64,000 nt of DNA, from positions 3,042,686-3,106,685 of the forward strand of contig OX459105.1 of NCBI GenBank assembly GCA_949775045.1, in the 5' to 3' direction. A program made the translations under genes and the position numbers. Source of the stretch: Metridium senile (Eukaryota; Cnidaria; Anthozoa; Actiniaria; Metridiidae). A model generated the notes under the pieces. That model was not told the DNA's origin. It did no database searches and was given only the letters and a program-made list of their open reading frames with translations. Every line of letters starts with the position of its first letter. Positions within the stretch are counted from its first letter, which is position 1. Below, piece after piece: positions 104-62,510 of the stretch.

Positions 104-245
104 GGCATGTGCATCCAAACAGTTCTATTCTCATACATATAGCAGTATTCCAGGACTGTGGATAGACTCTAACATATCTGACTGTGACTGGATGACTCAA
201 CCATCTAACAACAATGCTAGTCCTGTCAGAATTACCTTGAAATAC
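104..245 (-). CDS. Gene C F5/8C domain 4, second exon (intact)
   Basis: It encodes VFQGNSDRTSIVVRW and then VRYVRVYPQSWNTAICMRIE to LFGCTC. The 142-nt length keeps the frame. This is the intact counterpart of the frameshifted gene B exon at 37656-37798, from which it differs by one missing T (plus strand) near 170. The next exon (Ig) would lie beyond the left edge. Confidence 0.87.
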
Positions 246-3200: not shown

Positions 3201-6200
3201 AGTATGTTGTGTTTTATTTAGTCCACTAACAAACATTGCTCACGACTCGACGCAAAGAGTATCCTACAGTCCGTGCTTATATTATCAAACCCTGCATCTG
3301 ATTCATTAATGTTATGAAATATTGTAAATAGTATTTTTATCAACTTTTAAAGTTTATTGTACCTTATCTGCATTGTTTTCTTGGTAATATCTCCAGTTAA
3401 CATTGTCCAGAGATATTCTCAGCTTGTATTTCTTGACATATTCATCATTGCCATAACCATTTCCTTGAGTAGCAACAGCACATACATACACAACAGAACC
3501 AAGATCTATTTGTAGCCAGTCACCAACATTTGTTGTTTTAGGTTCCCAAGCTATGCTAAGTCTGAGTCTTGCATTACTGGCTATATAGACACTACTAAAA
3601 TAAGAACTTGCAGAAAATCTGTGATCAGGAACAAGACTGGAATATGGTAAACCAACAGACAACTTGGAACAAACTGAAATAAACAACGAAATATCCTAAT
3701 TTGTATGCTAAATATAATGGTAAGGATAATTTGCAGAATCGTGTTCGAAAAACTTCCATAGAGTTCTTGCATTTGCATTCAACACATCAGCAAAAAGTTG
3801 CACTGAATAGTACTAGTAATTATAATAAATTCATTCTAAATCCTTTGTTGATGTAATAAGTATGTTTTAAGTTTTGACTTACAGGTACTTTCACATATCT
3901 TTTGACGATTTGATTCCAAAGTTAGTTTCCATGTCTTAATTTTATCGGAGTAATTCAAACATTGGTGTGTCAATATGTTATAGTAAGGGTTTCTTGTACA
4001 TTTTATTTCCACTTTAAAGATCATAACGTTTGTTATTTCCATGTCATTATTATATCCAGATAGTTATCCACATTTTTACTCCTTGGTATGATTAATGATT
4101 TCCACTGAAATTTGGCATTGGGAGAGAAAGAGTAGCCTTCATCAAAGCTAGCTCAGACGTTCTTTGTTCAACTTAGCAACAATTGTTTGAAGTTTAATAA
4201 AAAAAAATTGTAACTTAGGAACAAACTTTGGAATCCGATGTTCAATTATGTAATTTTTTATGGAATCGAATAGAATTTTGAAAGCGCAGGTGGAATTGAA
4301 GTCAATGTGTTTTAGATTCTCAAATCAATGTAAAGAGTATTCCAAAAAATAAAAACGCTACAAGAACAATCAGTAGAACGAAGCCAGTTGCAAAGTACAA
4401 TTATTGAAGCTGTTATAACAGTTATATGTTAATGTTCTAAAACAATGGATTCAAATCACAGCTCTTGGGCAAAAACAAATACTTAATTGAACCGAAAGCC
4501 TCAACTTGAATCCACTGTTCAAATCATTTGCATGTAGCTATATTTATTTCAAATGCGTTCGGTGTATGAGTAGAATAAAGATATACATGAGAAAAATATC
4601 GCCTTGGGGTCTGCAGTTGCCCTATACTTCATTGTATGACTGCACATCCGGCGTGAATGGTCCTTGTGGTGTAGTGGTTAACACATTGAACTAGAAAACC
4701 GAAACAGTGGGTTTGAGTCCCCCCAAGGGCAATTGATATTTTCCTCATGTACATGTATCTATAATAACAGCAATTTTAACAACATCAGATATAAACAATG
4801 CTTGAAAATAAATTCCTTGTAATAGAATAAATATATGAATTATATAATTATGAAAAAATTGAAAATAGAATTGCTTTTAAAAAAAAATAAAATGCCTCAA
4901 CATTTGTCCAAATGGAAAAATTTAATACAAGCGATTGAAAGTTTTTATTAGTCATAGTATAATGAGGAAAAATATTGAATGCATAAAATGCAAATTAAAA
5001 AATTAGATTAGAAAATAATATTGTTGTTTAGCACAATACAATTTAGTTTATTTATTTATTTATCTATTTATTTATTTAATTTTTTTTCTGTTCTTACTAT
5101 TTACTAATTTATATCAATATAAAATACCTTGTAAAAAATATTAATAAGAAATAACAGTACTAATACATTATTGTAAACAATAGCTATCGTTAAAATCTAG
5201 GATACAGCCTTTAATACTGAATCCATTAATTGTTAAAATATAGAAAAAATCTAGGATTCAAAACTTAGTACTGAATCATTAATTGTAAAATAATTGAAAA
5301 AAATCTAGGTTTCAGTACTTAGTACTGAATCCATTAATTGTAAAATAATTGAAACAAATCTAAGATACAGTGCTTATATTTTAATTATGTAATGATGTAC
5401 TGTTTTATCATTGGAATAAAAGTATTAAAAAAAAAAAAAAAGAATAAATATATCCATACCCGTATTCTGTTGCACCCCATACAGTTCTGTTCTCATACAA
5501 CTTGTAGTCCCATAGTCACTCTTAGCATTGATACGGATGTTCTGACTGACTGTTCCTTCATACAACAGATTCTTAACAATTGTATCAGAATCAGTGTTGC
5601 CAACAAAGTCCTGTAATCATTGTTGAGAATGTGCCCATGTATTAATTTGTTTATTATATAAAATACAGTGTATTAAATCAACAAATTATTTCAACATGTT
5701 GAAAACATAGACACACGTGATCAATTGAAATATCAACACCGGACACACAATTTTGTGATACGATTTTTATTAGTGTCTGAAATCCCTATAACACAAATTA
5801 TGTTACATACTAATTTAAAATAAAACTACATGTAAATACCTCAATAACGTTATTGTGCTTGTAGTCTGTGAATGAGGATCCATCTGTTGATGTCTGTATC
5901 TGATAAGTCTGTACCCACTGATCTGACTTATGGTCACCCTGTGTTGCTACACCACAAATAATGTAAGGTGAACTCATCATCTTTACTTGGAGGTATGGGG
6001 ACGAGTCTGATGTGGCATCACACCATGATGACCCTGCTGTGTAACCAAGCCTACCATTTGATGGACGAGTGCTGGCATTGTATAGAGATGATGATGTCAT
6101 ACTGTTAGCTGGTATCTTAGCAACACTGGCAACACCAACAGGTAAAGATTTGCAGCTAAAGTCTAAAAATATAAAAATATTATATATATATTAATATATA

Positions 6201-9200
6201 TATATATTATATTTATAATATTATAATCTAAAATATAAAAATGATTATTCAACGATCAAATTTAGTCTACTAGCCAATATAAATCAGCATTTCTTAAAAC
6301 TTTTACGCTTTTTTGTTTAGTGAAATGATCAAAGATTGCCTTTTATCAATGGTTAAAATCAAAATCAATAATCAAAATCAATGTGTCTATTCGCCCATTG
6401 TCACTGGTTTTTAATTTGAATGGATATTTTAAACAAAAAAATACTAGATGTTTTTTACATTTTGCTGTGATGATACCATAAACATTGATTTAAATTATCA
6501 AGAGAAATCAATACCTTTTGAATCATCCCCATACACCTCTACTCGTAATGCCTTGAAGGTTTTATATTGTGTTGGTGTAAATCTGATCAGCTTTGCCAGG
6601 ACAGGAATGACCAGATCATTCTTGACAGCAGTATTGCTGTCTGTATTACCAGAAAACAACTATAAAAAAAAAAAAAAAAAACCATTTGAAATCATGACAA
6701 CTTATAGATCGAGCGGGGAGTAGAGAACTGAGTTTCAGAGAGTAGAGAGTAGCAACTAGGGACAAGAGAAGACTAGACACAACAATAGACTAGACTAGAC
6801 TAAACACAGAACTTCCTCAATAAAATGTTAAAGATAATTATTATTTCTATTTCTTTTATATTCAGTGGTTAAAATCAAACAAATCGACGTTCCGTTAACT
6901 GTTGAGTTATAGAGAACGCTTCTCAGCCAATCAGAGCGCGCGATTTATATCAAATATTTGATAAACAACAATAGACTAGACTAAACACAGAACTTATGGT
7001 TGTGCCTTCCTGAATAAAATGTTAAAGATTATTGCTGCGAGCAAAGCGAGTAGTGACACCAATTTTGACGCTATCAATTCTCATTTATGTTTTTGTATTT
7101 ACATACATTTAGATTTGGAAACTGCGTGTAGGATTAAGCTTCAGAACCTTTGAGTATGAACCATTCAGGTAATTTATATTTATGGTATAAGCCAATCCTA
7201 GACATTCAGACATTCCGCGGCTAGTTGCGAAATACGTTTTCGGCTGCTACTGATTACTCGGCACCTTTTATGTTTTTGATTGACGGCAACCAAAAACTTT
7301 TTTTACAACTTAGATATATATATGTTGGTCTGATCCGCGGTTATATTAAATTGCGTATGGTCAAAGGTCATGGGTTCAAATCCCGTTGAAGTCCCGATTT
7401 TTTTACGGGCTAACATAATTGCAATTACTTTAATTGCTTTACTCCGCGACGATCATATACTCATACACAATTTAGTATTTTACAACTAGTTGTTGGAATG
7501 CTTGTTTTTGCAGAAAGAAGGAAACTGCAGTAAAAACCTAACTTAGAAAACAAAAGTCTCTGCTGTTCTATCAGCAATATATAAAAAATAATATAAACAA
7601 AACGCAAATGCCTAACAGTAACCAAAACCGTTCCTGTCTCGAGTCACCATTTTGACAAACAATCCTTTGCGCACTTCAAAGAAGATGACAACAGTTTAAG
7701 AGTAAATGTCAGTAAGAACCGAGCAACCCGTGGCCACACTCAAAAAATGGATTTCGCTCATATTCCGTTTAAACGTATGAAATAGGTTACTTTTAAACGT
7801 GTCAAGGTTCGTTTTTCGAAAAACTGAATATTTTTCGAAAAAATCTGAAAAAACGATTTGGACCGTTTTCGGTCTCAAATTAGCGAAATTCAAGCGTGGA
7901 ATATACAGTCGAAAAACTTCCCTCGTGTGCAAAAGCAAGGCCTGCCAGCGAAACTCTGTTTTCGTGTATGGAACAAACAGATATTCAACGTTAATTTCAG
8001 AGTAAAATATTGTCGTTTCCTTGTTTTATAAAGGAAATAATCGCTCATCAATCAGCACGACTTTGCAGGTCAAAATAAATTACATTTTACTACCATTTTA
8101 TCATGGACATTTTCTCCATGTGCACGTGCTTCATATTCTAGCTACTCAATCGTCAAATGATAAGCTTTAAATTGGTGTAAAAATATTTCTGGGCTTTTTA
8201 CTTAAAGGTCCCGTACGAGTAGCTTGAAGTTGACACATTTTGCATAAATTTCGAGTGACCATTGGACTGAATTGCCTGATGCGATAAGACTGATACCATT
8301 AAAAAGTAGAATTTATACGTTTACAAGCTTGCATACTTCCTAATAACAATAACAAAAGTATATAAATGATACACATAGGATTCTTGTAATTATAATATTT
8401 CATTATTAATATCCAACAAGACACTACTAGATTATTATGCTACTCGTAGTATTTCGCTAATTGTAAACAACTGTTCTTTCATGTACTTTAGATTGTTTTG
8501 CCGTTTCAAATAATCTCCACTAAGCCAAACATAATGTTAGAATAACATCAGTTCAATAAAGGTTTGTTCGTGGGAAAAGAGCCGTCAATATTGCTTTGTT
8601 TTACGAAATCATACAACTGCGACCTCACGGGGTAGGACAGGGGAAATTTTTTTGAGTGAAAACGATGAAAACGCTTTTTTAAAAGCTTTTTTAAAAAATT
8701 GAGAAACCTTCTAAAATGATATGTTGAAGTTTTCTTGGTTTGATGATGATCATGTACATATGTACACTACGTTCTATTTTAGTTCGCTGTTTTTAAACAT
8801 TTTTGTATTAAAGTTTGTATACTAGAAACGGCAAATCAATTTGACATGTCATGTGTCGTGTATATTTCATTGTGTGTAATAATTGCACTTAGATGTCTAC
8901 TAAAACCATTAAGGTAGTTCGGGACCCAGCCGTTGTACGTAACATTGTTGCCACTTCGACGTTGTCGAAATTTTCTAACTTCGGATATGATATCTCTTTC
9001 AATCTAATTTAATTAGATAAATTAATATAGTATTTTCCATTTTCTCTGATATAAATAGAATAATATTATATCAATATAGCATATATTTTTTTCATTCGTT
9101 ATTCATCATTATTTTTCTTTCATATATTTATTCTAATAAAATAACTTTTGTATCCCCTATCAATATCAATAAAAATACATTGTGCATGCATGTGTTTAAT

Positions 9201-12200
9201 ATATTTATAAAAAGCTGATATATATTTGTAAATACTAAGTTAAAATTACCCGCCTCGACTAGCCTGCGTTACATCCGGTCTATTCCCCGCCGGATGTAAC
9301 GCAGGCTAGCCTCGACTAGCTCCGCTATTTGCGGGTATGTGTATATTAGTTGTAATTTCATGTTGAAATCAAATAAAGTCAAAGTCAAGTCAAAGTCTAT
9401 TAAGATGCTAAAGGAAATCTGCAAAAACCTTGAAATTGCTATCGACGACATCAAGTCGATCCAAAAGAAAGGTCCCTTATATTGAGAAAATCTCCAAGTC
9501 AGTCGTAATCAATAACTGCATATGCTTAACGTGAACAATAATTACAGCTTTTAAAAACATGTTTATGTGTGTATCAATCAGGGGGAAAGGTATGGATAAT
9601 GCTCGTCGGGAATTGTCAAAGACACCCCTTAAAATAGTCCTTTTTAAAAGGGTGTGGCATGGACGATGTTTGACCCTTATTAAGAGATATAAGATAAACC
9701 ATAAAACAAAAATCGTGCGAATATGCCAAGCAAAGCGATGGGTCTTCCGTTTGAATACCCTAAAATATACAAAGAAATGCGAAGATTCTAGATTTCAATT
9801 TTAATACCATAAAAAAATACGCTGATTTTTTGCTCCCAAACGATACGACGGACATGCGAATAGTTTTACCCAAATGTCCCCCCGGGATATGAATTGAATT
9901 CCAAGGCAATAAACATGTTTTACTAGCTGTATATTACAATATCCTGCATGTACATTATAGCATTGGATGTGAAAAAAATAAAATAACCTATAGTACCCCA
10001 ATAACGAATAACAAATCCATCTACCCAGGGCTACCCCCTTAGACAAAAGTTGTATGTTTGTCTACCAACCAAAACATGAAAACTACCGCAAGCAGAATAG
10101 TTTTATTTCCAAAGCAATATCAACGGCCTTTTTTCCCACGAAGAAACTGTTATTGAACTGATGTTATTCTAACATTATGTTTGGCTTAGTGGAGTTATTT
10201 GAAACGGCAAAATAATCTAAAGTACATGAAAGAACAATTGTTTACAATTAGCGACCGGCGGTAAGTATTAAATAACGAAATACTACGAGTAGCATAATAA
10301 TCTAATAGTGTCTTGTTGGATATTAATAATGAAATATTAAGTACAAGAATCCTATGTGTATTATTTTTATACTTTTGTTATTGTTATTAGGAAGTATGCA
10401 AGCTTGTAAACGTATAAATTCTACTTTTTAATGGTATCAGTCTTCGAAATTTATGCAAAATGTGTCAACTTCAAGCTACTCGCACAGGACCGTAAAGTAA
10501 AAAGCCCAGAAATATTTTTACACCAATTTAAAGCTTATCATTTGACGATTGAGTAGCTAGAATATGAAGGTAATCTGAACACGTGCACATGGAGAAAATG
10601 TCCATGATAAAATGGTAATAAAATGTAATTTATTTTGACCTGCAAAGTCGTGCTGATTGATGAGCGATTATTTCCTTTATAAAACAAGGAAACGACAATA
10701 TTTTACTCTGAAATTAACGTTGAATATCTGTTTGTTCCATACACGAAAACAGAGTTTCGCTGGCAGGCCTTGCTTTTGCACACGAGGGAAGTTTTTCGAC
10801 TGTATATTCAACGCTTGAATTTCGCTAATTTGAGACCGAAAACGGTCCAAATCGTTTTTTCCGATTTTTTCGAAAAATACTCAGTTTTTCGAAAAACGAA
10901 CCTTGACACGTTTAAAAGTATCCTATTTCATACGTTTAAACGGAATATGAGGGAAATCCATTTTTTGAGTGTGGCCGCTAAAGATCGATTTTGCTCGTTT
11001 CTTACTGACATTCACTCTTAACACCTTAACCCCTGAAAATGTATATTAAACTGTATTTACCAGCCCCTTAGAAACTTTTAAAAATCCATGTTATTGCATA
11101 TTTCCAATCAGCAACGAAGTCTGATTATTACCCGTTTATCCCCAAACAGTTAATCCACCTTTTACTCAAATGAAGGCTTAACATGTGAAATGATAGTAAC
11201 TCCATGCCTTGTTACTCTAGGCTTGTCATTACAATTGTTACTCTAGGCTGTATTACCATTACCTTGGGTGAGTTGCTATTGTCTGAGTATGTGATCCATA
11301 AGTTACCATCACTTGATGTTGATATCTTGTACTGTGTTGTCCATTCAGAGAAAACACTCCTAGCATTCCCTTTTGTAGCTACAGCACAGATAACAAACAC
11401 TTTACCCAAATCTATCTGTAGATAGTCATCAGGATCACCATTGCCATTTGGTTGCCAACAACGGTCAGAACTAAACCTTGCTTTCTTGGCTCCATATTCG
11501 GCTCTTAATTCAGAGTTTGCTGTAAAGCTGCTGTCTGGTATGATACTACTGTCATCAAGACCAACAGCAGAACATCCATCTTGACAACCTGAGTGAGGGA
11601 AAAAGTTAAAATTTAAAAAAAGTCAAAACTGTAAAACGTGATTAGAAATTAAGTATATAAAAAACGTATATAGCTAATTCAATTAACTTTGTCGCTGATT
11701 TATAATGCCTAAAGCCTAATCGTCAGACCGAAAGGGATCGTGGGATATATTTTAACGAGGCGAATGAGGCGTGCAAAGCGTGTAAAACATTCAACATGTA
11801 TTTGCAAGTGTTCCTCAGTGGAAACAAAAGCACAAATTACGGTTTAGGAAACTTGAAAACTCATGAAATTTTAAAATCCCATGACCACTTTCGCTCTCAA
11901 GATTAGACTTTAGGCTTGTTTCAGCGACAAAGTTAATTGAATTGGCTATATAAAAGATGTGCGTGCGCTTGAGTTATGAATGGATATATCTATCAGCCTT
12001 GATGAAAAGTCTATAAGGTCATAGTATTTCAAGAAGTTTAGGTAATTTTTATGTGACGATTATTTTGGTTGAAAGAAGGTTGACTTTTTGTTTGCAGCTC
12101 AGTTGCATATTGCACACTGCATATTACCAGGATCGAAAAGTTATAAAACAAAGTCTTTAATTAATTAATTAATTAATTAATTAATTAATTAATTAATTAA

Positions 12201-15200
12201 TATTAGTAGTCCATTTTCATTCATATGTTTAGTGTGAGCTAGCACTTGATCTACTAATTTGAAGATTTAAGTTTGTTATTTCGAGGTTTATTTTACAATA
12301 CATAAAATCCAATTCATATAAGTTAAGCTAATATTAATTGATTTATTAACTAACTAATAAATTGATAAGTAGATCATTCATGAGTAGATGGAGTGCTCAA
12401 ACTAAACATACGAAAGAAGTAGTACTACCGCTAATATTTAATTAAAAGGTGATAATAGATTAAATTATATTAATGTAAATCGATGTTTCGGTATGTGCTT
12501 GTCAAATATGTTTTCACAATCAGATTATTATCAATCGCTTTATTTAGAGACAAAAATATTCAATCAACAAACAATTTTGTTCCTAGTTTACCAGCTAAAA
12601 AATATAATTTGTGGCTAATTTTATTTATATAGTTTCAAGAGTCTAGAAAACGCGTGACTATATTGCGTGACTGTAATATTGATTACACAATCTCGATAAC
12701 GAAACAACGGAAATAAATCAAATTTCAAGGATTAATTTTTTGTTTGACGACATATAAATATACATGTATATTTAGACTGTTTTAATATCGGCAGGTGAAA
12801 ACGCTCAACAAACACGTACAAATAAAATATGCTAATAAATCGATAACAAGAGAAGAAATACTGACATCTTTTGCAGGCTTCAGCACGGTGGCTTCAGAGT
12901 GTGGACTGTACCTTTCATTGCGACAACGACTCTTGGAAAAAATGTTTATAGTATTTTGGTGGCTTCTTTTAAAATATTCCCGTTGTGATAATTCATTCTT
13001 TTGTTTGAAATGTTTTCATTTACTTTTTAAACGGCGGGGACTTATAACATATATTACGTCTTATTTCTCTATGTGGTATATTTTTAAGTTGACGACAGTT
13101 TGCTGTCCTGACTGTAAAGTAACAGAGATTTTTTGACACTGCAAAAGAAAAAAAAAAACACCACAAAGACGGAGTAGAAAAGTCGGTTTAATTTTCCGTG
13201 CATTAAATTACAAAGTACTTATGCTGTCAGATGTATTTAAAAAATCTTCGCCTAATGCTAACGCGCTCTAATTCGAAACAAGTAAAAGGGTAACGAAACT
13301 CTTTCGCGACGACGTCCCTCGAGAGCTCTCTTCCTTCCTTTATATTAAAAAAACATTACCCAAAACTAATAGATTATATTCGATTTAAGATTGCTAGCCA
13401 TAAATGTGTGAAACAATTATTAGTTATTTAGGAAGTAATCGTATTTAGTTATCAACTACTTCGATAGAACAGTTCTCATTTAACCCGTGTCTCATTTAAC
13501 CCGTGAGACAAAGTATATTAGTTAAAGCACGATATTCGAATTACAAGAAAAGAACAAAATTAAGCCGTGAAACTTTCTTTACTGTATTAGCCGATACTTA
13601 AATACATCGTTAATTCCATCGTGTTCTTGTGTTATTATTTCAATATCACGCTTTGACTAATGCCTCTTCTACACGAATCCGATCCGGCTGAAACCGCATA
13701 GAAATATTTGCGTCCACACGAATCCTGTTGATCGTTTTCTATTCAAAAGTATGCGGTTTCAGTGACCGGATTCACTGGATTCATGTGGACGATAGGCCGA
13801 TTCGCATCAAAAAGTATGCGGTTTCAAAAGTATCCGGATCCGTGTAGCCGGGGTCTAATACACTTTGTTTGACGGGTTTATGAGAACAGCTCTGTATATT
13901 ATGCAGTATATTTCGGTATTAATAGAGTGTTTCCTGTCTATAAAATGTCACTACCATAAATTAAAGCAAAGTAAACATAGAATATAATCCATTATTTTCC
14001 ATCACTAACCTGTAGTTTTTTGAAGCAATAAGATTACAATCACGGTACGGAAGTGAAATACAACATGATCGTCTGCCATGTTTCGTGAAGGTAATGTACA
14101 CAACGTTGGTAGAAATTTAGTATATAAAAACGTAAATAAAATAAGCGCGTGAAAATTAGCTGAAAATATAATGGATATCTGTCAGCCTTGCATGATTAAA
14201 AGTCATTTCAAAGATCATATTATTTCAAGTTTAGGTTATTTTTATTGCACGGTTTTTTTTTGTTGTTGTTGAAAGAAGGTTGGCTTTTTGTTTGCAGCTC
14301 AGTTGCATCAGTTGCACACTGCATGTTAGCCTGTCAGGGGGGTTTGGGAGAAAGGGGAAGAGCTAGGAGAGAGGAGAGGAAGGGGAGAGAGGGAATGGGG
14401 CGATGGGCATCTCCCCTTGAGCCTGTTCACAGTTGATCGCCTTCCCCGAAAGGAATTATTGGTCGCTATTTTTGGTTAGCAATTTTCAAGCATTTTCCGA
14501 GTATACAATGTAGACTTTTCTTGTTGATTGAAATATAATCCCACCATGAGTTTGACTATAGCGTTAACAATTAATTGAAAGAAGGAATAACTAGTATTTC
14601 ATAATTTTTCTTGGCAAAATAATGGGAAATGCTAATCAAAATATGATGTTGAATCCTCAATTCTGATTGGTTGACCTTGTGTTTGTTCTGAAGGTCAACT
14701 CAGCTGAATGTTTCCGTATGTACAGGTGAAATGTGCAATAATGTGATTCTTATTAATCATTTTAGACAAAAAGTATTCAATCAACAATCAATTTTGGTCC
14801 TAGTTTACCAGCTAAAAAATATAATTTGTGGCTAATTGATATAGTTTCAAGAGTCTATAAAATGAGTGACTATATTGCGTGACTGTAATATTGCTTACAC
14901 AATCTTGATAACGAAACAACGAAAATAAACCAAATTTTCAATATTAATGTCTTTCGAGGACACATACAAAAAAATTAAACCCGTTTTCAAATATTTTATA
15001 TTTAGACTATTTTGATATCGGCATGTGAAAAGATCGGAAACGCTCAACAAACACGTACAAATAAAACATGCTATGCTAATAAATCGATAACAAGAGAAGA
15101 AATGCTGACATTTTTTGCAGGCTTCAGAGTGTGGACTGTATACTTCATTGCGACAACCATTTTTGAAATAACTGTTTATAGTATTTTGGTGGCTTTTGAA

Positions 15201-17784: not shown

Positions 17785-18171
17785 TCATATTCGAAGTTCA
17801 TTACTAGCTGAATTACTATCCATATGTAGTCTTTGGTATGCAGAGTTTTGTATGTCCATTATAAGTGGCTGGTAGTTTGAAGAATCACCACATTCACCAC
17901 TACTCAACAGTACCTTAGCCTTTGTGGTTTGATTAAGCTCCTCATAAACTGATCCTTGGTTTTGCTGGCTTATATCAAGTGCCTGGTACGTTCCACTTGG
18001 CAAATCACTAGCTGAAGTATTACCTTTGCCGTGGGATGTGGATGGCATGGTAGGATGTGAAGTGTTCTGACTGTTCTGGTACTCGTCGATGGAATCGTAT
18101 ACTTGGGAAATAGTTGTAGGGATGTTACTCAATTGAATACCTCCATCTGGTCCTCTATCAACTCTGGTATT
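17785..18171 (-). CDS. Gene B exon 27: tyrosine-motif tail and stop
   Basis: The last 128 residues include VYDSI, EYQN, TYQAL, SVYEEL, SNYQPL and SAYQRL. SVYEEL, SNYQPL and SAYQRL each fit (S/I/V/L)xYxx(I/V/L). YQPL and YQRL are separated by 8 residues (IMDIQNSA), matching the ITAM pattern YxxL/I-x6-8-YxxL/I. The region between is rich in Ser, Thr, Gln and Asn, with no folded domain. It ends SASNELRI then a stop, as in gene A. Confidence 0.88.
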   Translation of the reverse strand, partial: NTRVDRGPDGGIQLSNIPTTISQVYDSIDEYQNSQNTSHPTMPSTSHGKGNTSASDLPSGTYQALDISQQNQGSVYEELNQTTKAKVLLSSGECGDSSNYQPLIMDIQNSAYQRLHMDSNSASNELRI

Positions 18172-21100
18172 CTAGGAAAAAATAAAGCAACATACTGGAG
18201 ACATATTTGGATTAATTATTAAAATTGGTATAGATTTTAAAGTGCCCCAGAATACTCTATACTAAAACTGGACATTTTCTTAGTACCAGCACTGTCCGAT
18301 ATAGAGGGGTTTATAAATATTCTTATTAAAGTGCCGTAAACATTGTCCTTTTTAATTATAGTTTGTTAAAAACGTGTAGTTTGAAGATAGAATAAGAACA
18401 TGGCTCACCTCATAAACAACTTGTTGTGGCGAATCTTTTTCTTCATATTTTGAATTCCTGCATAGTAAAAACACTATAGTTATCTATTTAAATACTATAA
18501 TCGTTTTGGGTAATAGTCCCCTACACAGTTCTCTGCTCCATCTTAAAAGGTAGCCGGGCCTTTGCACCGAAGCGAGACGAACGTTGAGCTTGCAATGATA
18601 GGGAAATGTTAATACCCTGCGGGACAATTATTCACGTGTCTCTATCATTGCAAGCTCAACGTTCGTCTCGCTTCGATGCAAAGGCTTGGCTACCTTTCAA
18701 GATGGCGCAGGGAACTGTGAAGGGGACTATCGATCGGTTCATGGTGAAACATTCTACCTTTTGGTTGACTGTTCTTCAACTGAAACATAAATAATTAAAA
18801 ATATTAAAATAACACTAAGGCAGTTATTAGTAGTGATAAAAACAGTTTTGATGACGATGATTAATGATAATCAATAATAATGAATCTAAAAATATATCAT
18901 ATACAGTTGACTCTCTCGTGAGCCTCCATCCTCGAACCAGAAGAAAGCGGTTATGAATCTAAAAATATATCATATACAGTTGACTCTCTCGTGAGCCTCC
19001 ATCCTCGGACCAGAAGAAAGCGGTTATGAATCTAAAAATATATAATATACAGTTGATTCTCTCGTGATCCTCCATCCTCGAACCAGAAGAAAGCGGTTAT
19101 GAATCTAAAAATATATCATATACAGTTGACTCTCTCGTGATCCTCCATCCTCGGACCAGAAGAAAGTGGTTATTAATCTAAAAATATATCATAAACATTA
19201 ACACTGTTAAAAGGCTTGCAAAATAAGAAATAGAATTACGAGAAGACCAGTTGTCATTTTTGTAATTTGTATATTTCGGTCTTTATCCAAAGACCATCAA
19301 CTGCAAATGAATAAATTCAACTAAGATAAGTAAACAAAGATAAACTTTGGATTAAGACCGAAATATACAAATTACAAAAATGACAACTGTTCTTCTCGTA
19401 ATTCTATTTCTCATCAAACTATATGCCCAAAAGAATATATTTATACTTGCAAAATAATATAAAACACTAAACGTACCTTTCTTTCTCAAGTATAGGTTGT
19501 AAATCAGAAGTAGGATAATGATCACTATGAACACCACATTGAATGATAGTGAGATGAGGAAATTCGTTTCTGCAGTTGCTAGAAAGAAATCATGATATGC
19601 ATGTCAATAAATACAAATACATAAGCCAGCCATTAATTATAACTCACAGAAAATGTCCTCTTGTGATTGTCCTTTCTTTCCATCTTCTAAAACAAGAAGT
19701 TAAGATACACCTATTTCAATTAACGTTGTCCATCTGGAATGGTTGATCTGAGACCGGTAGGAATTGTGGTAGTTCGTTAAACTGCAAATACACTATTATA
19801 TTCACGCTCGAATATTAATGTTTACTTCTGAAATACTGTTATTCATAATTCAGCACCATTCAAGTGTGATTAAAACAATGTATTTGGTATTTAATGTACT
19901 CCCACAATTCCTGTCGGTCTCAGATCAACCATTCCAACGCAATGCAAGGCGGGACATTTGTCTAACAATTTGTATTAACCCGAGCGTTTCAACAATCAGA
20001 AGATAACTTCTGCTGAAGTTGTCAAAACGTCAGACAAAAACACCATCATTAGTGTTTTTTCAAGACTATACAAGCCAATATTCATTTAATTAATGCTCTC
20101 AGTTAAAAAGTTTTTATATTTCATTTGGCGACAGTTAGTGTGTTAAGTAACATAAGGTTATTCTGACACAAAGTTTAGAGGGCCAAAGAAAGACAGCGGT
20201 ATCTTTAAAGTTTGGTACAGTTTTGCAAATACTAAAAGCATGATATGCAGAATAGTACCAAATAGCGTTTCTACTGTTTTGTAAAGAATAAACACTAAAA
20301 GCATGCAACATAATAAATTAACACTAAAAATGTTTTAGATACTAGTTACCTTTGCTCACTGGGACTTTAACCTCTGCAATTTTTACCATTCCACCATACA
20401 AGTCCTCAAATAATAAAGAAAAGTGTATATAAGTGAGAGAATAAAATATTCCCCTTCACAGTTTACAGTTTCTGCTGACCTTTGCAATCAAGCAAGACGA
20501 ACATTGAGATACGTACAATGATAGTGTCACATGCATAATTGTCCAGCAATGTGTCAAAATATATTTATCCCTGCAAGAGAGCTGATAAGGGTCACAGCTT
20601 GTTCTGCTGCAATGATATCCATAATATACAAAATAGCTACAGAGACAATCGTTGCATCACAACCTGCTATTTCGAAACTTCAGTTGGATTATAATATTTT
20701 CATTTTTTCTTCTGTCAAGGTGGAGGTGAAGCTTATGTAAACCTGTCAACTGATTAGTTAATTTGATGTAAGCCCCGCCTCTAAATTGATTGACGGATCG
20801 AAAAAAATCAAATTAATTGAAATGTCCATTTGCTAGTCGTGATGCAATAATTTTCTCAGAAAACAACACATATGACATTAACTAATTGGCTCAAGTGCAC
20901 TTTATTAGTAGTAGTGTAGGGACCGAATTAGCCTTTTTTAGTGAGGTTCGTGAGAATCGAGTGATTGCGGTGATCTGGTGATCCAGGTGATCGGGGTGAT
21001 CGGGGTGATCCGGGGAGCAGGGGGGAGTTTGCAGTTCTTTTTACGGTATCATGATTAAGTGGAAAATTCATTGTTGTCCAAAGACGGACTTAACCGAGAA

Positions 21101-24100
21101 ATGATTGGATGTGACGCAGGCAAGAGGATGGTCGCTTCAAAGAGAGTCAACTGTATTTAGTATATTTAGTATACTTACTGTCTTTCCACATTGAAACACT
21201 TCATACTGTTTACCCTCCTCCAATTTGACATTTTCATAATTTCCATACTTTTTGCCATCCCCAAGGGTAAACGTCTCTGTATTTGGAGGCAATTCAGCTG
21301 CATTTTTGGCTATTTCTTTACATGTCAATTTGGAGCATTCAGGAGAACGCTTTTTTCTCTTCTTATCTTTAACTTCATGAATATAAACCAAGACAAGACT
21401 GACACAAATAAGTAAATTATATAAAATTAATAAAGTAACAATTAATTCAACTGTATTCATTTGACTCAAATATGCAACTAGCTGTTGCCTAATGACTAAC
21501 AGACTGGGGATTGTTGTCACTGCAGCCGTGTTGTTGTGTGTATAATATATACTCTATCACCATATAAACACAACAATCAACATCATCATCATAACAACAC
21601 CACAGTCAACATCATCATCGTCATAATCATCATCATATAATCATCAAAATCAACATCAGCATCATCATCATAACAACACCACAATCAACATAAGCACCAC
21701 CATATTAACACCACAATCAACATAATCATCATTATCATGATATTAACACCACATCAACATCAGCATCATCGTATTAATATCATCGTCATCATAATCGTTG
21801 TTATACATGTCTTACTCAAGCTTTCCATTGATATCACTTATCTTCCACAATGTGATGTTGCCAACAGCAGAAGTAATTGTACTGACATAACCTCCTTTTG
21901 GTACAGGTGGTTCTGTTGGAAAACGTTTTATATAGGTATACACCTATTTCAATTAACGTTGTCCATCTGGAATGGTTGATCTGAGACCGATAGGAATTGT
22001 GGGAGCTCGTTAAACTGCAAATACACTATTATAATCACGCTTGAATATTAATGTTTACTTCTGAAATACTGTTATCCATAATTCAGCACCATTCAAGTGT
22101 GATTAAAACAATGTATTTGGAAGTTAATGAGCTCCCACAATTCCTATCGGTCTCAGATCAACCATTCCAGATGGACAACGTTAATTGAAGTAGGTGTATG
22201 TTAACTTGTCATATGTTTGCAAACATAATTGTAATTGTAATATTAGCACCACTATAAACATCATCAACATATTAGCACCAACAGCATCATATCGACATCA
22301 TATCAACAACACCATTGTCAATACAACCTCTGCAGACTCAGAAGTAAGAGCAACCTGACTGAGTGACTGAGTGACTGAGTGACTGAGTGACTGAGTGACT
22401 GAGTGACTGAGTGACTGAGTACTAATTGAAAAATTTAGCGCTGGCTGTTAAAATAACACCTACAAACAGTTTCTGTTAGGGCGAGTCCATTCAAACCATT
22501 CATTGAAGGTTGAGAACAATAACTGTTCTTACCACTGTTTAAAATATCTCTGAAATTGATTTTGCTGAGACTTTTAAAAAAAGATTTTGTAGTCATGGTA
22601 GATTGGTTGCATACATTCATAACTTTATATCTTTCACATGTACGCCAAAACGACAAATTAAATTTTCAGTGGAAACTAGTTTCGCTTTTCACATTTTACA
22701 TAATTTCTAACGGATTGTAATACAGTGGACTGAGGTTAACTAAAGACGAAACTAGTTTCCACTGAAAATTTAATTTGTCGTTTTGGCGTACGTGTGCAAG
22801 ATATATAGTGTTTAAAATTATTTGCATATAACTATAATAATAACAACTATTGTACCACATGTTTAGATCCTAATTATCACAAAAAAACCTACTTGATTAT
22901 TTGTATTTTGTTTGAAAACACAAATATATAAATTAGAAAAATTGATAGATCGAAGGACTGTATTGGGATAACATTGAAGCTTGCTTAAAGAATGGATGTA
23001 GAATAACAAAACTGGGACATCATTCTAAATGAAGTTCGACTGAATCGAAACTGACTGGTGACTTGTTCGTCCAATTCTGAGAAATTTCGTTAAAAATAAC
23101 ATTTATCTATCACTTTTAAAAAGGTTTGATGTATTCTAAACCTGAATGAACGGTATATTAATCCATAAGTACAGCGAAACCAAACGAATGTGTAATAGAT
23201 GATAATGCAGATAGGGCGACGAACGTTTATGCTTTTTCAAAAATGGTTATTTTGACAGTCAAACTCAAAACAAACATACTAATGACAAACACAATTGTAT
23301 GGTATAAGATAATGAGAGATGATTATTATAGAAAGTTTCAAGATAGAGCACTGGTTATGAATAGTCGGCAAACTGGTTCTAGGACCTCGGAGAAACGACT
23401 CAACTGTTTGCGAAATGACCGGTAACCTGTGAGTGATGATAAGACTGACTTAACTAATGTTTGCATGTAGAACAATTATCACTACACAATACCTCCAACT
23501 TCTGTATCACCTATTACTTTGTTGCTGTCCTTTCCTTTACCACATTCAGTCGTAGCTGACACAGTAAACCTGTATCTTGTAGCTGGACACAGATCAGTCA
23601 CTGTGGTAGTTAAACTTGTTGAAAATGTTGTACGGTTTGGTAAAGGAAAACCAACCCAAGAAAAATCATAAGTCTTCCAACCATAGATAGTGATCTATAT
23701 ATAATAAATAAACTATCCTTAGCTATATGATTATCATAATTAATGGTGATAATAGTGTTTACAAATATCATGATGATAAAGATGATCGTTGCTGATGCTG
23801 ATAATGATGATGATCAAAAATGATTATCATGACATGATGATGGATGTGATGTGATGCGATGTAGTAATGTAATGAGGTGATTCTGATAGTTTCTGATAAG
23901 CCTCTTGGCGTTTTGTTAGTAATCTTCTCTTGTCAACTTAATTATATTTGTGCATGTATTACGCGCATTTGATCATATGCACATGTTAATTTGCGCGAAA
24001 CAAATATTAAATTATTATATATATTGTATATTTATAATGGCAAAGAAATAAATTTCCATAAGCTCCCAATTAAATGACGACCTTCATATTAATGACAATG

Positions 24101-27100
24101 ATTATGGTGATGAAGAAACCAGCCAAGATTTACAGGCAATATCAGCTCTCCCATGGGCAAAGATCGCCTGAAAGACCACAGCGATCCTTTCCTCGCCAAG
24201 GCCAGAAATAGAATGACCCTAACAGTTGTCTCTCAGAAAAAGGCTTAGGTGTGCTGGCCAAGACTAAAATAATTGGAGACTAACTGCAGCAGGCTAGTCA
24301 AATACAGACGAATGATAATGAATGGATAAATGAATAAATGAATAAATGAATGAAGTTAAATATAATCAGAATGATAATCATGATAACAGTATGTTTGATG
24401 CAATTAATCTTACTGTATAATGTTTCACTGGATTAGCAAGAAGTTGCAGGGGTGACCACTTCAGCTTTGCTGTGCGTTTATCCATTTTAACAACCTCTAA
24501 GTCTCTGGGTGGCCCTGGTACTGTATTCATCAAAGAACAGTAAAACAATCAGGCTTCTTATTACAAACAAGCTATAGGGTGCAATAATGTGAATATACAA
24601 CCAAGCCATGCCTTGGTGTGCCTGACCTTCAGCATCATAATCCATTTAGTCATCTTAAACATCCTCATCATCTTCTTGACCACAATATCCATCGTGGTAT
24701 CACCAACACCATTTTCATTATTGTATTCACCAACATAAAAATCATCATCATTGCCATCAGCACCACCATCACCATGATCAACATTGTCATCACCATCATC
24801 ATTGCCATTTCCGTCGCCATTATCATAATTGCAATCACCATCATTGCCATTAACCACCACCACCACCATCATTGCCACCACCATCGTCATCGTCAACACC
24901 ATCATCGTCATCACCAATATCATCATTGTCATCACCATCATTTTCATCACCATCATAGTTATCGTTGCCATCACCATCATCACCATGATCATCTTAATCA
25001 TTATTATTATCCCCATCATATCTTATGCTGTCTTTACCTGATGTTTTTAGTTCAATCTTTTCACTATATTGACCAGCTCCTTTGATTGTGTAAGCCCTTA
25101 CTTTAATGTTGTATATAGCACACTGTGGTAGATCATGAAGAGCAAGACTACAATTGTGGTTGGCACTACCACGGCATGGTACCTCTCCACATGATACATT
25201 AACCATCATCTTTTTTATTGGATTAGGATTGATCTTTACATTCTCCAGTTCATAGATAATTATGCGGCCGTTTGTGGAAGGTAATGGTTGGAATGATATA
25301 TGGAATGTTGTTGTGTTGTATTCAACTACTTTTGGCTTGGCTGGGCTGACAGGAGCTGAATTACAAATGATTGAAACTGATTGATTAATTTGCTTGGATT
25401 ATTTTATTTTATACTATTTTATTTTTAGAGTATGACACAAAAACAGCATATAACCACTTTTAAAGTATTTTTTACCCAATAACATTTTATGTATTAAAAC
25501 ATACAGCTATATTGTCGAAGCGATTTGATTTAATTTCAATCTATTCAGTTTGATTCATTCAATTTGATTTGGTTGGATTTAAGAAAGAAATCCCATTATT
25601 GACAATGGGATAATATGATCATAATTAATTTCAGTTTGATTCAATAGGTAGGGAAATTGGATAAGAGATGTGACAGCAAAGCAAGCATGATTGTTTAGAT
25701 ATAGACAGAAAAACCATCTGTCTAGCAAAAATATCTGCATGCTTTGCAGCCGCAATTTATACTCAATTTGCCCAACTCAATTTGCAATCGGTTGTAATTG
25801 TATTTCTTTCCAAGCCAATGTGATAAAGTTTCATTCAACCCAATTGATTTCATCAATGATTGTATTTCAATGAATCCAGCTTTGATTGATAAAAGAAAAC
25901 AAAACTTTCACATGAGTTTAGGACTACATCTTATTCATTGATCCAATAAATTTTAACCCAATTCTGTTCATTATTCTTACCATACTCATTAATGTCTACA
26001 GATTCCACTACTTTTACTCCATCATTGACAGTATAGGCACAAACTTTAATTTTGTAACTTAATCCACCACAAACATCAAATGTATAAGAATATATATTGT
26101 TGTCCAATGATTCTGCTTTTTCATCTCCTGTCTTGCCATATGACACTTTGTAATGTCTAATGATTCCATTAGGAGAGGAAGGATGATTCCATTCTATTTT
26201 CACTTTAGGTCCAGTAGAGTCAACTGGGTCAATGACTGTTGTTTTCACAACAGTAGGTTCTGAGGGTGCTAGTGAAAATAATCAAATAAAAAATTAAACA
26301 AAAATGAACTATTAAATTGCAATAAAAAACATTGTGATCAAGGGATGAGAAAACAGGAAAGCGTAAATGATGAATATTCTATAGCTATTTTGTGTTATCT
26401 TTTCTTGCTGCAGTATTTAATGGGATTTAATTTTTTAGGATAAAACAAATGTTCCTATCAAATGAGCTTTGTCCCTAGATTGCAGATTCATATCAATCTA
26501 CCCAGTGTTTTGGGGGTTTACGTACGGTGGGCGAATCTAGCTTTGTAAAAACAAACTAAGCAAACAAACTTAGCTAAAGGTATTATTAGCAGCTAATTAA
26601 AAGCAGGATTAGCACGAATTGCCAAGGCTTATTTCTATGCCCATAGGTTTAGTCAAGATTTAAACCAGGATAAGCATCAACCCAGGAGTATATATCTCTG
26701 ACTATAGTTTTTATCAAGAGTTAAACCAGGACAAGCACTAACATGGGATTATGTATATAAGTTTTATTGAGGGTTAAACAAAGATTTATACTAATTGGCT
26801 TTTGAAAAAAGGTTCACAATAAGCTTGTACTTACGTCCTTCATGTGTTCTTATAGTGATATCGTTTGTGTAAGGACCATCTCCTACTGATGTATAAGCGA
26901 GTACTTTGAAGGTATATTGTGTGTACATGTCAAGGTTGTACAGGACAGTACTAGTACCAGGACAGTCTTTGATTGATGGAGGGGAACAGTCATCAGTCTT
27001 GCAGTACCAGAGTTTGTATCCTTTTATAAGACCATTTCGTTTATCACTGGGTGGTAAATCCCATGATAGACTAATATTTGTAGAACTGATGGCAGTCCCT

Positions 27101-30100
27101 TTGAAAATCTCAGGAGTAGCATCTGGTTCTAAAGACATTCAGATATGACATTTTCAATCACTTAGTGATGTTGGAGACCAAAATAATATAAAAATTCCAT
27201 CTGATCATCAAAATATCACTACCTCAACTATAAGCTATACTCAATGTTGTCATGTTTGAAATGTAGATCACTGCCTTTTTATCAAAGTTCATATGTACAA
27301 TCATTTCAAAAACATGTTGTCCAGGTTTTAGCAACAAGCATTTGCAATATGCCAAAACTAAAATGAATGTTTTTACAATCAATTCTGTTCATAAAAAGTC
27401 TCATTTCAATACATCATGATCAGCACAAAACCAATTATATTGGTCTGGTTTGACGATTGAAATTATAAATATAGGCAAAGGGATTTTAGCAGAATAATTA
27501 TTATGTTTAATGTACGTGACGAGAATGATGCAGCTCCATTAATATTAATATAAAATAATTCATATAAAATTGATGGATATATTGTTTGCACTCTAAGTGT
27601 TTGATTTTGTCTGTCTGTTTGTTGGTTTGTTTTTCCGTTTTAGCTCAGATCAGGTCTCATCATCTATTTGCATACGTGACACTTACCATCTTCCCTCGTT
27701 TTACGTTTTAACACATGACTACTTGCAGGACCATATCCTTTGTCATTACGAACTTTTACAGTAATGGTATACTCGGTCCATTTATCCAGTCCCGTCAGAG
27801 TATGTGAAGTACTTTGACCACCATTGATAATAGCTTCATGTGACCCTCCCCCTGAGGTTTTAGAGTAGGTCACTTTGTATCTAGATGGAGCACATCTGAT
27901 ACCAACAGGAACCTGTAATGTGACGGTCTGTTGTCAAGTCATCAGTAGCAATATTGGCAATCATAATAAAACAAAATTGTTGAGAATTACAAAGCAGTAC
28001 TAATATATCATTGAAATAGTTAGCAAACAAGATTGCAGCTGATTCATATCAAATTATTTGTTTTCTTCATTAACAACTAATAAATACTATTTTGATATAA
28101 ACAATATAAATCTGTTATTTATTAATAAATGGCCTATTTGGTACAACAAGTAACTGCAGTTAATAATGACTCTCTCGTAAGTGACCACTGTATACACATT
28201 GTTATCGTCTTAAATAAATTCAACATTTTGTGTTTATTGAAAGGATCTGTCAAAAAACGTGAACCCTAAAGATGGTCGTGGTCGTTTACGAAAGTGGTCG
28301 CTTACAAGAACGTTTTTATAGAGTGGATATGGGAAACAAAACGGGAAATTGAAGGAGTGGTCGCTTACAGGAGATGGACGCTTACGAGAGTGGTTGTTAG
28401 GAGAGAGTCAACTGTAGTAGTTATCCATGGATTTAGTATGTCTGCATGCACTCAAATGTAATAATTATCATCAGCATATCTATGCGTATGTACATGATGG
28501 GCCATTGTTTTGTAATGTAAATGATGGTTTCATGGATTGTCAAAAAGATATTATAGGTAAATTCATTGGAGGACGAGGGAATTCCACGTTGAATTTCACT
28601 CGAAAAATCAATATCGCATGAATCGCGGAGTCCGCGGAGCGATGAATGCGATATTGATTTTTCGAGTGAAATTCCACGTGGAATTCCCGAGTCCAAAAAT
28701 GAATTTTCCTTGAATCTCATTTCTTCAATTTAAGCTTCAAAAACCAGACGCGCGCGTTCCGCCGTTCCCGCCATGCGATTCAGAAACCGGATGAGAGGGT
28801 ATTCCACGCTAAATACCCTCGCATCCGGTTTCGTTCTCAGCCAATCAGCGCGCTTTAAAATAATGAAGTATGAGATTCTATAGAAAACTCTACATGTTTT
28901 GGAAGGAATTTAGGAGCAAACAAAACTGGCAGAAAGTAAGGAAGGATAATCTAAAGGAGAGATGGCAAGAAAAAGATACATAGGGGAGAGAGTAAAAGAG
29001 GGGCATGATGTATCCAGTCATACCTGCCATGTTACAAGAATACTTTGAGATGTCTGTGCTACTGCTGTAACACCACCAGGAGCAACTGTAGGTACTGTGT
29101 TGTAAAATAATTATATCAAAACAATAAAAATGCAAACCTTGACTGGCATTTTATAAATAATTTAGAATTATTATGACATGCCAACATTCTGACAGTCTAT
29201 TTGACTCTAATGATAATCATTAGATCATTGCTCATAGGCAATATGCCTAGGGGTGTACATTAGGTTCTAGACAGAAACACAGCGTTCAAAAGTAGTAACT
29301 ACAGCCAATGCAACTGCACAGTTGAAACACTTTGTTTCATATTATAATACATTAAGTCATACTTGTCCTTTACAGGTATTTACACAAAAACGTATTCGTA
29401 AGTTGGTGAACCATTACTGTAATGAGATAAACATCACACAGCCAATCACACAGCCAATCACACCTCATGCAAATGATATGATATAGTGTGTTAAGTCCAA
29501 AAAGAGCATTCCTCAACAGCATTTCGCACTTGGGATACAATTTCTTTTGCTGGATGCGAAGCCACTTATGTCTGTGAGACAAATTGGCATTTAACCACAA
29601 CGTATTTGACGTCTTAATATGGATAGGGCATTACACATAAATATTAAATAGACACAAGTGGACATTTATTAATATTGGTTTAATTTATAAAATATTTTTG
29701 GACGTTTTTGTGCATCTCCCTGTCCACTATAAAAACATGGTAACCAGCCAATTAGATTGTGCATTTTGATACAATTATTAATTAGAAAATAGTCACAGCA
29801 AAACTGAGTGCGACTTGAGCCAATCTCGAACCCCGAGCCTTCGTTCCTCTTGGCCAGCCGAGTAACGTAAGACTCTGGGGGACCGGAATTCTCTGCTTGA
29901 CCCTTGAAAAAACAATGGTCAGACCGGAAACAGACGAAGTAAAAGCTCTGATTGGTCCATCATGTAAACAAATGTACATTCAAAATGTAAATTTTACGAT
30001 TACATGTAATACGACGTCAACGGTTCTTTAATACTAGATAGAATATTAAATATCGTCGTTTATGGAATATATACGAGTCGCGAAGCGAAGAGATATTGTA

Positions 30101-39100: not shown

Positions 39101-40275
39101 TGTTTTTTTCAAGTGTTTGTCTGTCAATTGAAATGAAGCCCTTCTTCAGCATGATTCAAAACCAAATACAATGTTTACAAATGTATCAAAGAGATTACTT
39201 ACTTGCCGGTACTCCATAGACATCAACTCTCATTGCAGCATACATCTCAAACTCTGTTGGGTAAAACCTTAGAAACTTAGTCTTGGTTGGAACAGCCAGA
39301 GTATTTGTAACAATGGTCGTCTTGTCTGTATTGCCTGTGAAAACCTAATAGGAATGGAAGATTGTTTAACTGAAAATATGCATATATTTCATCTTTAATC
39401 AATTTCAATGCGAATTTTAAAATGACCGATTCAAATATTGTAATTAAACTGATGCTACGAAAGCGAACGGACTGGACACGAAAAGACTTAGAAGCGAACT
39501 AACTTAGAAGCAAAAAGACATGTTTTCGAAAATATACATAATTGTATTTTGGTTGGCTTTAAGTTGCATATGTAAACCTTTAGAGAACAAACATCTCTTT
39601 CAATTATTCTATCAAACATTTTGACTTGGATAATTATATAACTATTGAAACAGTAATGGTTTTGAACAGGCGGGTTTGAAATTAGATGCTGTACCATCAA
39701 CTCAATCTATAGCTACTGTTATTTTGTTCATTTAAGTGATCATGATCGAATACACATCAATATTATAAATACCACATGCAAACTTTCATTTTTCATATCA
39801 ATTTATCATCAAACTTTTTTAAATGAAATCCTATGAATGATATTGATAGATGATCAAAAACTAATTAATCAACACAATAATAATTACAACATGACTTTAA
39901 TTAAGCTAGAAATCACAACTCTTACAGCACTCTGACTATGAGTTCATTAGCATATTGTGACAATACATGTAGAAGTGTGTTTTTTATTAAATAAATATAT
40001 AGAGGATATTACACGGTGGCGCGAAGATATGAATTTTATTTTCGAGTGGTGAAAACAATATTTTACGAGTGAGCGCAGCGAACGAGAAAATAAAACTCAT
40101 ATCTTCAAGCCACCGTGTAATGTTCTTTTTATTATATGGACAAAGTGAAGCAAACAAAATTAAGAATAAATGTTGAATTTTAATTTAATGTAAAGAAATA
40201 TTCATTACAAGTGAACGTGCTGAAAGTCGCACAACTGACCCGGGAACTGAATAAAGTTCAGCAAATATTGATATC

Positions 40276-40306
<31 letters not shown>

Positions 40307-46300: not shown

Positions 46301-46513
46301 ACAAACAAACAAACAAACAAACAAACAAACAAACAAACAAACAAACAAACAAACAAACAAACAAACAAACAAACAAACAAACAAACAAACAAACAAACAA
46401 ACAAACAAACAAACAAACAAACAAACAAACAAACAAACAAACAAACAAACAAACAAACAAACAAACAAACAAACAAACAAACAAACAAACAAACAAACAA
46501 ACAAACAAACAAA

Positions 46514-46604
<91 letters not shown>

Positions 46605-62132: not shown

Positions 62133-62510
62133 TCATATCCGCAGTTCATTGCTGGCTGATTTACCATCCATATTTAGTGTTTGGTATGGAGAGTTTTGTA
62201 TGTCCATTGTAAGTGGCTGGTAGTTTGAAAAATCACCAGATTGACCACTACTCAACGGTACCTTAGCCTTTGTGGTTTGATTAAGCTCCTCATAAACTGA
62301 TCCTTGGTCTTGCTGGCTTATATCTAGTGCCTGGTACGCTTCACTTATTAAATCACTAGCTGAAGTGTTACCTTTGCCGTGGGGTGTGGATGGTATGGTA
62401 GGAGGTGAAGTGTTCTGGTACTGGTCAATGGAATCGTATACTTGGGAAATAGTTGTAGGGATGTCACTCAATTGAATACCTCCGTCTGGTCCTCCATCAA
62501 CTCTGCTATT
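62133..62510 (-). CDS. Gene A tyrosine-motif tail and stop
   Basis: It contains VYDSI, QYQNT, AYQAL, SVYEEL, SNYQPL and SPYQTL. YQPL-x8-YQTL again fits the ITAM pattern. Every tail tyrosine of gene B's last exon has a counterpart here, while the residues between vary. It ends SASNELRI. Confidence 0.88.
   Translation of the reverse strand, partial: NSRVDGGPDGGIQLSDIPTTISQVYDSIDQYQNTSPPTIPSTPHGKGNTSASDLISEAYQALDISQQDQGSVYEELNQTTKAKVPLSSGQSGDFSNYQPLTMDIQNSPYQTLNMDGKSASNELRI

Follow-up and report, generated by a model that had tools for sequence, protein, structure and literature searches.

A conserved ITAM-type tail on discoidin-Ig-FN3 receptors in a tandem gene array of the sea anemone Metridium senile

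The tail exon of gene B and its copies

The window analysed here is a 64,000-nucleotide stretch of chromosome 11 (C11) of the sea anemone Metridium senile (C11:3042686-3106685), and positions without a contig name are counted from its first letter. Its minus strand holds gene B, whose tail exon sits in a tandem array of genes for receptors with F5/8C (discoidin), immunoglobulin-like (Ig) and fibronectin type III (FN3) domains. The tail exon (17785..18171; coding 18171-17788, stop 17787-17785) is an open frame of 128 codons plus stop that reads ...VYDSIDEYQN...TYQALDISQQNQGSVYEEL...NYQPLIMDIQNSAYQRLHMD... and contains YDSI, YQAL-x10-YEEL and YQPL-x8-YQRL. The terminal YQPL-x8-YQRL matches the pattern of an immunoreceptor tyrosine-based activation motif (ITAM), as an earlier reading of the letters alone (the sequence-only reading) had proposed, and TYQAL...VYEEL forms a second YxxL/I pair with x10 spacing. 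The further motifs named by that reading, SVYEEL, TYQAL, VYDSI and VYENT, are likewise present. VYENT, which has no hydrophobic residue at +3, arises at the junction of the tail exon with a small cytoplasmic exon on the same strand (18409..18457, read 18457-18409), which ends in VVYE and has in this frame a pooled ratio of nonsynonymous to synonymous divergence (dN/dS) of 0.32 over genes B-F. The tail carries YxxL/I-x6-8(12)-YxxL/I in the cytoplasm beyond the transmembrane segment. In 100,000 shuffles of the 152-residue gene B tail, five or more YxxL/I motifs (p = 0.0004), an ITAM with x6-8 spacing (p = 0.012) and two x6-12 pairs (p = 0.001) were all uncommon.

A search of the genome (389,276,800 bases in 169 contigs; the published assembly jaMetSeni4.1 is described as 390.9 Mb in 250 scaffolds, PMC11362738) with the tail gave matches at 12 places. 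They are full length at C11 3.060, 3.105, 3.136, 3.169, 12.985 and 13.016 Mb and at C14 4.395 Mb and nearly full length at C1 15.986 Mb, while pieces lie at C11 3.197 (two) and 3.230 Mb and at C14 4.415 Mb. We aligned the eight longest matches, omitting the four pieces. The free variation of tyrosines among family members, named beforehand as contradicting the proposal, is not what the alignment gives: all six tail-exon tyrosines are invariant in 8/8 tails, the dispersed copies included, compared with 47/122 of the other columns (Fisher p = 0.004). Invariance extends to the +3 position of every one of the five YxxL/I motifs (5/5). Two of the eight tails, the chromosome 11 copies near 13 Mb, contain a late TAA. 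The ITAM-type tail on this discoidin-Ig-FN3 receptor family is real and conserved.

Gene models and the state of the array

Between the transmembrane exon of gene B (19477..19578, minus strand, placed by exon comparison and gene models) and the small exon lies a 22-nucleotide microexon (18758..18779, minus strand) flanked by AG and GT, which carries the frame from the membrane into the tail. It was found by script, with equal length, in genes B, C, D, E and F, and visual inspection showed matching sequence in L006 and L008. The microexon is needed because the donor of the transmembrane exon (phase 1) is out of frame with the small exon. A weak donor 4 nucleotides downstream was considered for this frame gap and dropped, the microexon being the better explanation.

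Genes C and E yield open models (1545 and 1537 amino acids) that begin with the signal peptide and end with the tail, with GT-AG at every internal splice site, and by splice phase in these genomic models the tail is in frame with the transmembrane segment and the ectodomain. The consistent phase in both paralogues bears out the claim that the tail belongs to an F5/8C-Ig-FN3 ectodomain. The part of gene C inside the window, all on the minus strand, comprises the tail exon with its stop (62133..62510) and, within 62739..63991, the small exon (62781-62739), the microexon (63278-63257), the transmembrane exon (63541-63437), the linker (63704-63660) and the second half of FN3-6 (63991-63790); the open model extends beyond the window end.

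On the domain composition, given by the sequence-only reading as four discoidin domains, one Ig and six FN3, Pfam identifies four F5/8C and five fn3 stretches in gene E. Neither the Ig domain nor the sixth FN3 receives a Pfam call in this intact paralogue, and both are assigned by homology only, that is by exon homology and by an Ig_3 match at the corresponding place in a Nematostella protein, P0009. In gene B, on the minus strand, the signal-peptide exon (MADDRVVFHFRIVIVFLLLQKTT; 54559..54628, phase 1 donor) is followed by discoidin 1 (47038..51754; exons 51754-51443 and 47182-47038), discoidin 2 (45304..45969, two exons), discoidin 3 with its variable loops (39203..45078; exons 45078-44762 and 39344-39203) and discoidin 4 (37656..38642; exons 38642-38335 and 37798-37656). 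Then come the Ig-like domain (36869..37517, two exons), FN3-1 (36339..36629), FN3-2 to FN3-5 (25038..29094; exons 29094-29024, 27912-27687, 27122-26835, 26268-25981 and 25340-25038) and FN3-6 (23493..24520; exons 24520-24414 and 23694-23493). A juxtamembrane extracellular linker exon of 39 nucleotides (19648..19686) precedes the transmembrane exon; it is present in B, C, E and F (45 nucleotides in C) and was not found in gene D.

Gene B also retains the two halves of a seventh, membrane-proximal domain resembling FN3 or PTP_tm (first half 21816..21912, second half 21179..21398, minus strand). The acceptor of the second half was placed by eye, and its Fn3_PTPRU match is below the cut-off. With a donor phase that misfits the linker exon, and no exon found that could join the two, this domain is probably a relic or skipped. 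A hydrophobic stretch at 21553-21399 was considered as a second transmembrane segment with its own tail and rejected on comparison with the Actinia protein P0005, which identifies 21179..21398 as the second half of the seventh FN3-like/PTP_tm domain and the hydrophobic part as intron. An in-frame stop noted at this stretch in gene D accordingly lies within an intron.

Gene B itself carries two frameshifts in extracellular exons: relative to gene A, the first exon of discoidin 1 lacks 8 nucleotides and the second exon of discoidin 4 has 1 nucleotide extra. The Metridium senile assembly is reported to be built from HiFi reads with a quality value (QV) of 55.0 (PMC11362738), which makes read errors an unlikely source. 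Gene B is thus probably a pseudogene here, and its paralogues are the likelier working members. The sequence-only reading, which had also overlooked the microexon, the linker exon and both frameshifts, is not supported in taking gene B as the working receptor. Among the other members, the frame of gene D is broken by a single stop within an FN3 exon, and gene F carries an additional FN3 and has a frameshifted tail.

These lesions, with the late stops in two further tails and the phosphatase-type seventh FN3 exons retained in genes B and D, are what one would expect if the tail-bearing members were mostly relics of a phosphatase receptor family, the tail exon having persisted through copying of the array. 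Genes C and E, open across more than 1530 codons, speak against this, as do the tyrosines kept in every aligned tail and the occurrence of these tail motifs in an Actinia relative. We regard such a relic origin as very improbable.

Phosphatase paralogue and relatives in other cnidarians

The array also contains gene G, whose ectodomain exons as found run from the second half of discoidin 3 through discoidin 4, Ig and six FN3 to the seventh FN3-like domain. Phosphatase exon matches lie downstream of these ectodomain exons (C11:3234534-3244259), and between the two a hydrophobic open reading frame (ORF) at 3249288 resembles the transmembrane segment of P0009. The first phosphatase domain reads VHC then SAGVGRTG, the HCxxGxxR[ST] active-site motif, and the second VHC then SDGVGRSG. 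By exon matches, gene G therefore has the transmembrane segment, tandem protein tyrosine phosphatase (PTP) domains and active-site motif of a receptor tyrosine phosphatase. Gene E has no cytoplasmic PTP domain by Pfam, and the gene C tail exon closes with a stop; nor does E, in which Pfam finds F5/8C and fn3, have a kinase domain, so it does not belong with the DDR kinases. Further PF00102 clusters occur at C11 3.353-3.362 and 3.424-3.431 Mb, where the phosphatase domains alone were read.

Over about 317 amino acids from discoidin 4 through Ig to FN3-1, gene G is closest to F (88.0% identity), followed by C (85.0%), A (84.2%), D (82.6%) and E (81.4%), and A, C, D, E and F are 80.4-89.0% identical to one another. 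Gene B was omitted from this comparison and from the tree because its discoidin 4 is broken. The tree of A and C-G groups G with F at 0.90. Most simply, the two receptor types, ITAM-type and phosphatase, would have arisen within one family through an exchange of 3' ends.

A full-length search with gene E yielded 42 proteins among 7997 candidates scored, the close relatives coming from sea anemones (Actinostola, Exaiptasia, Actinia, Nematostella) and corals. In a hydropathy-based motif scan of these 42 for a transmembrane segment followed by a tail of under 500 amino acids with a YxxL/I-x6-12-YxxL/I pair, only P0005 and P0014, both from Actinia, were positive; eight of the proteins have longer tails, which lay outside this motif scan. 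The coral proteins P0015 and P0017 have tyrosine-rich tails with other spacing, and no tail was seen in Exaiptasia P0002 and P0006, whose models end shortly past the membrane. P0005 (Actinia tenebrosa uncharacterized protein LOC116291753 isoform X2) is N-terminally incomplete, gene E aligning with it from residue 134. Like gene E it has four F5/8C stretches, an FN3 array, a transmembrane segment and a tail, here ending YQPL-x7-YESL; unlike gene E it keeps a membrane-proximal PTP_tm domain (29.6 bits; cut-off 26.3), with Ig_3 below cut-off and no PTP domain among its Pfam matches. From the transmembrane segment to the end the tails of E and P0005 align with 28% identity and colinear tyrosine motifs (VYENT/VYANT, VYDSI/TYEQI, YQAL/YDSI, LYEEL/IYETI, YQPL/YQPL and YQRLH/YESLH).

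This conservation bears on whether the YxxL/I motifs are sorting signals for the clathrin adaptor AP-2, on an adhesion or scavenger receptor that is endocytosed without SH2 signalling. YQPL, YQRL, YQAL and YEEL do fit the YxxPhi consensus, and the ectodomain is of an adhesive type. Endocytosis usually requires one motif, though, and here six colinear tyrosines and two ITAM-spaced pairs have been kept between Metridium and Actinia despite the low tail identity; VYENT, moreover, lacks the hydrophobic +3 residue. We consider sorting an unlikely account of the tail.

Other relatives combine the same ectodomain with phosphatase domains. Nematostella P0009, a receptor-type tyrosine phosphatase, has four F5/8C, Ig, FN3 and two phosphatase domains, with Ig_3 above cut-off (34 bits; cut-off 30) between the discoidins and FN3, and is about 40% identical to the Metridium copies over discoidin 4-Ig-FN3-1. 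By domain listing, P0010-P0012, P0016 and P0020 (Nematostella and corals), named like P0009, have F5/8C, fn3 and PF00102. These proteins are of the same kind as gene G, with phosphatase domains where Metridium C and E have the ITAM-type tail. The ectodomain combination, which the sequence-only reading could attach to no named family, in fact falls within a cnidarian group with receptor tyrosine phosphatases among its members, one of them in the same array.

Among the neighbouring genes, gene A (104..14079, minus strand) has its signal-peptide exon at 14079-14010 and discoidins 1-4 at 11588 to 104. It continues below the window at C11:3034926-3042685, where it is open up to a second FN3-3-type repeat, and its signal-peptide exon is present twice, the second copy lying 5'. 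Neither a tail match nor a transmembrane exon like those of B-F was found 3' of it, down to 3018000; an unrelated hydrophobic ORF lies there at 3030811. Gene Z (C11:3009658-3017727) is a relative with one discoidin and six FN3 matches, and may be tail-less, since a similar transmembrane ORF at 3008063 stops soon past the membrane. Elsewhere in the window, a weakly GIY-YIG-like ORF (2491-2913, minus strand; E 0.0077, below cut-off) possibly belongs to a mobile element. Introns of gene B hold an inverted repeat pair of about 1 kb (30374-31374 / 33304-34308, 94% identical) and a long 4-base microsatellite translating as TNKQ (46010-46520). An open frame at 57134-57505 (plus strand) weakly matches the polyphosphate kinase middle domain (20.2 bits; cut-off 31), and tandem repeat units of about 148 bases, judged from ORF spacing, lie between genes B and C (58316-59838).

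Discoidin tips, candidate partners and known systems

We then compared the discoidin loops among paralogues A-F of one haplotype (the alternate one is deposited as GCA_949775035.1), leaving out discoidins 1a and 4b of gene B. Two tip loops are divergent in discoidins 1 and 3 (dN 0.38, dS 0.49), in contrast to their counterparts in discoidins 2 and 4 (dN 0.05, dS 0.03), while the discoidin framework has dN of about 0.05 and dS of 0.14-0.15. The contrast is post hoc, since the loops were picked by eye from the alignment, and it narrows with a wider loop set (dN 0.24 versus 0.08). The tip-loop dN/dS is 0.78 in discoidins 1 and 3 (bootstrap pN/pS 0.45-1.54) and 1.84 in discoidins 2 and 4, the latter derived from 5 synonymous differences summed over all pairs. 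The raised loop dS suggests mosaic exchange. The divergent loops align with those of the factor VIII C2 domain, and the match places the discoidin 3 loops at its membrane-binding spikes; the discoidin 3 query also matches lactadherin and neuropilins.

The discoidin domains of lactadherin and factor V/VIII bind phosphatidylserine, and a match to these families (neuropilins too) could point to an engulfment or adhesion receptor of Draper type that clears cells or matrix and plays no part in self/non-self distinction, its diversity stemming from duplicate decay and gene conversion. Such a role would accommodate both the loop dS raised alongside dN, as in mosaic exchange, and the several broken copies. 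It accounts less well for seven ectodomain copies (A-G, a lower bound for the array) with ITAM-type and phosphatase outputs, which exceed the needs of housekeeping uptake, and for variation concentrated in the tips of discoidins 1 and 3 and not of 2 and 4 (in loops chosen by eye). We hold this role to be possible, if rather doubtful.

Candidate signalling partners are encoded in the genome. Its 46 SH2 matches include a pair at C11:15270110-15271079, separated by about 500 bases. The N-SH2 ORF has SYK as its best match (E = 2.9e-48), as has the C-SH2 ORF (1.2e-34), with ZAP-70 second and SHP-2 far weaker for the same ORFs (7.4e-22 and 4e-17). Kinase exons with HRDLAARNVLVV follow downstream on the same strand from about 15275391. 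On C9, three SH2 and two PTP pieces on one strand (14.136-14.149 Mb) would, by their coordinates, suit an SHP-type phosphatase. One study reports that, among invertebrates, vertebrate-like Syk/Zap70 kinases are confined to those in which CARD-CC and Bcl10 are present too (PMC5978004).

We favour, as somewhat likelier right than wrong, a tandem family of type I receptors whose ITAM-type tail would signal via Syk and would be opposed by phosphatase paralogues with a nearly identical ectodomain. In this model the discoidin tips would hold a ligand and the receptors would cluster, upon which Src-family kinases could phosphorylate the paired YxxL/I motifs. Syk might then dock on the phosphorylated tail via its two SH2 domains and signal. 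Phosphatase receptors with almost the same ectodomain would meet the same ligand or cluster and remove phosphotyrosine, so that the balance of the two outputs is proposed to set a threshold. We infer the signalling, the ligand and any role in allorecognition from the genes as they read in the genome.

Several observations weigh against the proposed Syk-phosphatase opposition. Constraint outside the tail motifs is weak, with a pooled tail dN/dS of 0.70 (B, C, D, E), and YxxL/I is also compatible with endocytic signals. Given the frameshifts in B, the stop in D, the broken tail of F and the late TAA in the two 13-Mb copies, much of the array may be dead. Positive selection on the tips is not established, as dN/dS fails to single out discoidins 1 and 3. 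The gene B tail alone gave no match in the protein collection, and the Actinia tail region retrieved only itself from it. Gene G as one receptor is a putative assembly of exon matches, and the stretch retrieved showed neither discoidins 1 and 2 nor the first half of discoidin 3. The Syk-like tandem SH2 and kinase exons are present, but as a putative single gene, by strand and proximity.

The array's job is likely the recognition of other cells, of microbes or of self versus non-self. More specifically, it could be a sea anemone self/non-self locus in which activating ITAM-type receptors and receptor phosphatases with a common ectodomain are neighbours and mosaic exchange diversifies the tips of discoidins 1 and 3, by which the adjoining animal would be read; in Metridium senile it would serve the recognition step before catch-tentacle attack on foreign clones. 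We think this improbable. Work on the aggressive use of catch tentacles in this species is cited in the literature (PMC3493586), and anthozoan allorecognition is described, with Alr loci named, in a further text (PMC7563517). PTPRD-like genes are reported as raised in stimulated Nematostella immune cells (PMC13319465). In titles and abstract openings we found no literature on this receptor family, and there and in partial texts no gene named for sea anemone clonal recognition; genes C, E and G with the Syk homologue offer concrete genes for its study. If the pairing of ITAM-type and phosphatase receptors with a common ectodomain in one anemone locus is true, a balance of activating and erasing receptors exists in cnidarians.

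The array resembles vertebrate paired immune receptors and CD45/CD148 in setting an activating tail against an opposing phosphatase output. Inhibitory paired receptors of vertebrates use immunoreceptor tyrosine-based inhibition motifs (ITIMs), and CD45 and CD148 have, to our knowledge, no ectodomain in common with ITAM receptors, whereas the array's phosphatase partner has the same ectodomain as the ITAM-type receptor. We know of no vertebrate phosphatase fused to the same recognition domains as an activating receptor. Drosophila Draper, a single chain with an ITAM-type tail like the Metridium receptors, acts with Src and the Syk-family kinase Shark, a link made in a work that PMC5978004 cites; unlike the Metridium receptors it has an EGF-repeat ectodomain, and no phosphatase twin of it is known to us. 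The ectodomain of Hydractinia Alr is not known to be of discoidin-FN3 build, unlike that of the Metridium family. The likeness lies in the tails: ITAM/ITIM-type motifs are described in a review on these cnidarian allorecognition candidates, and ITIM and hemITAM motifs in Botryllus (PMC12065747).

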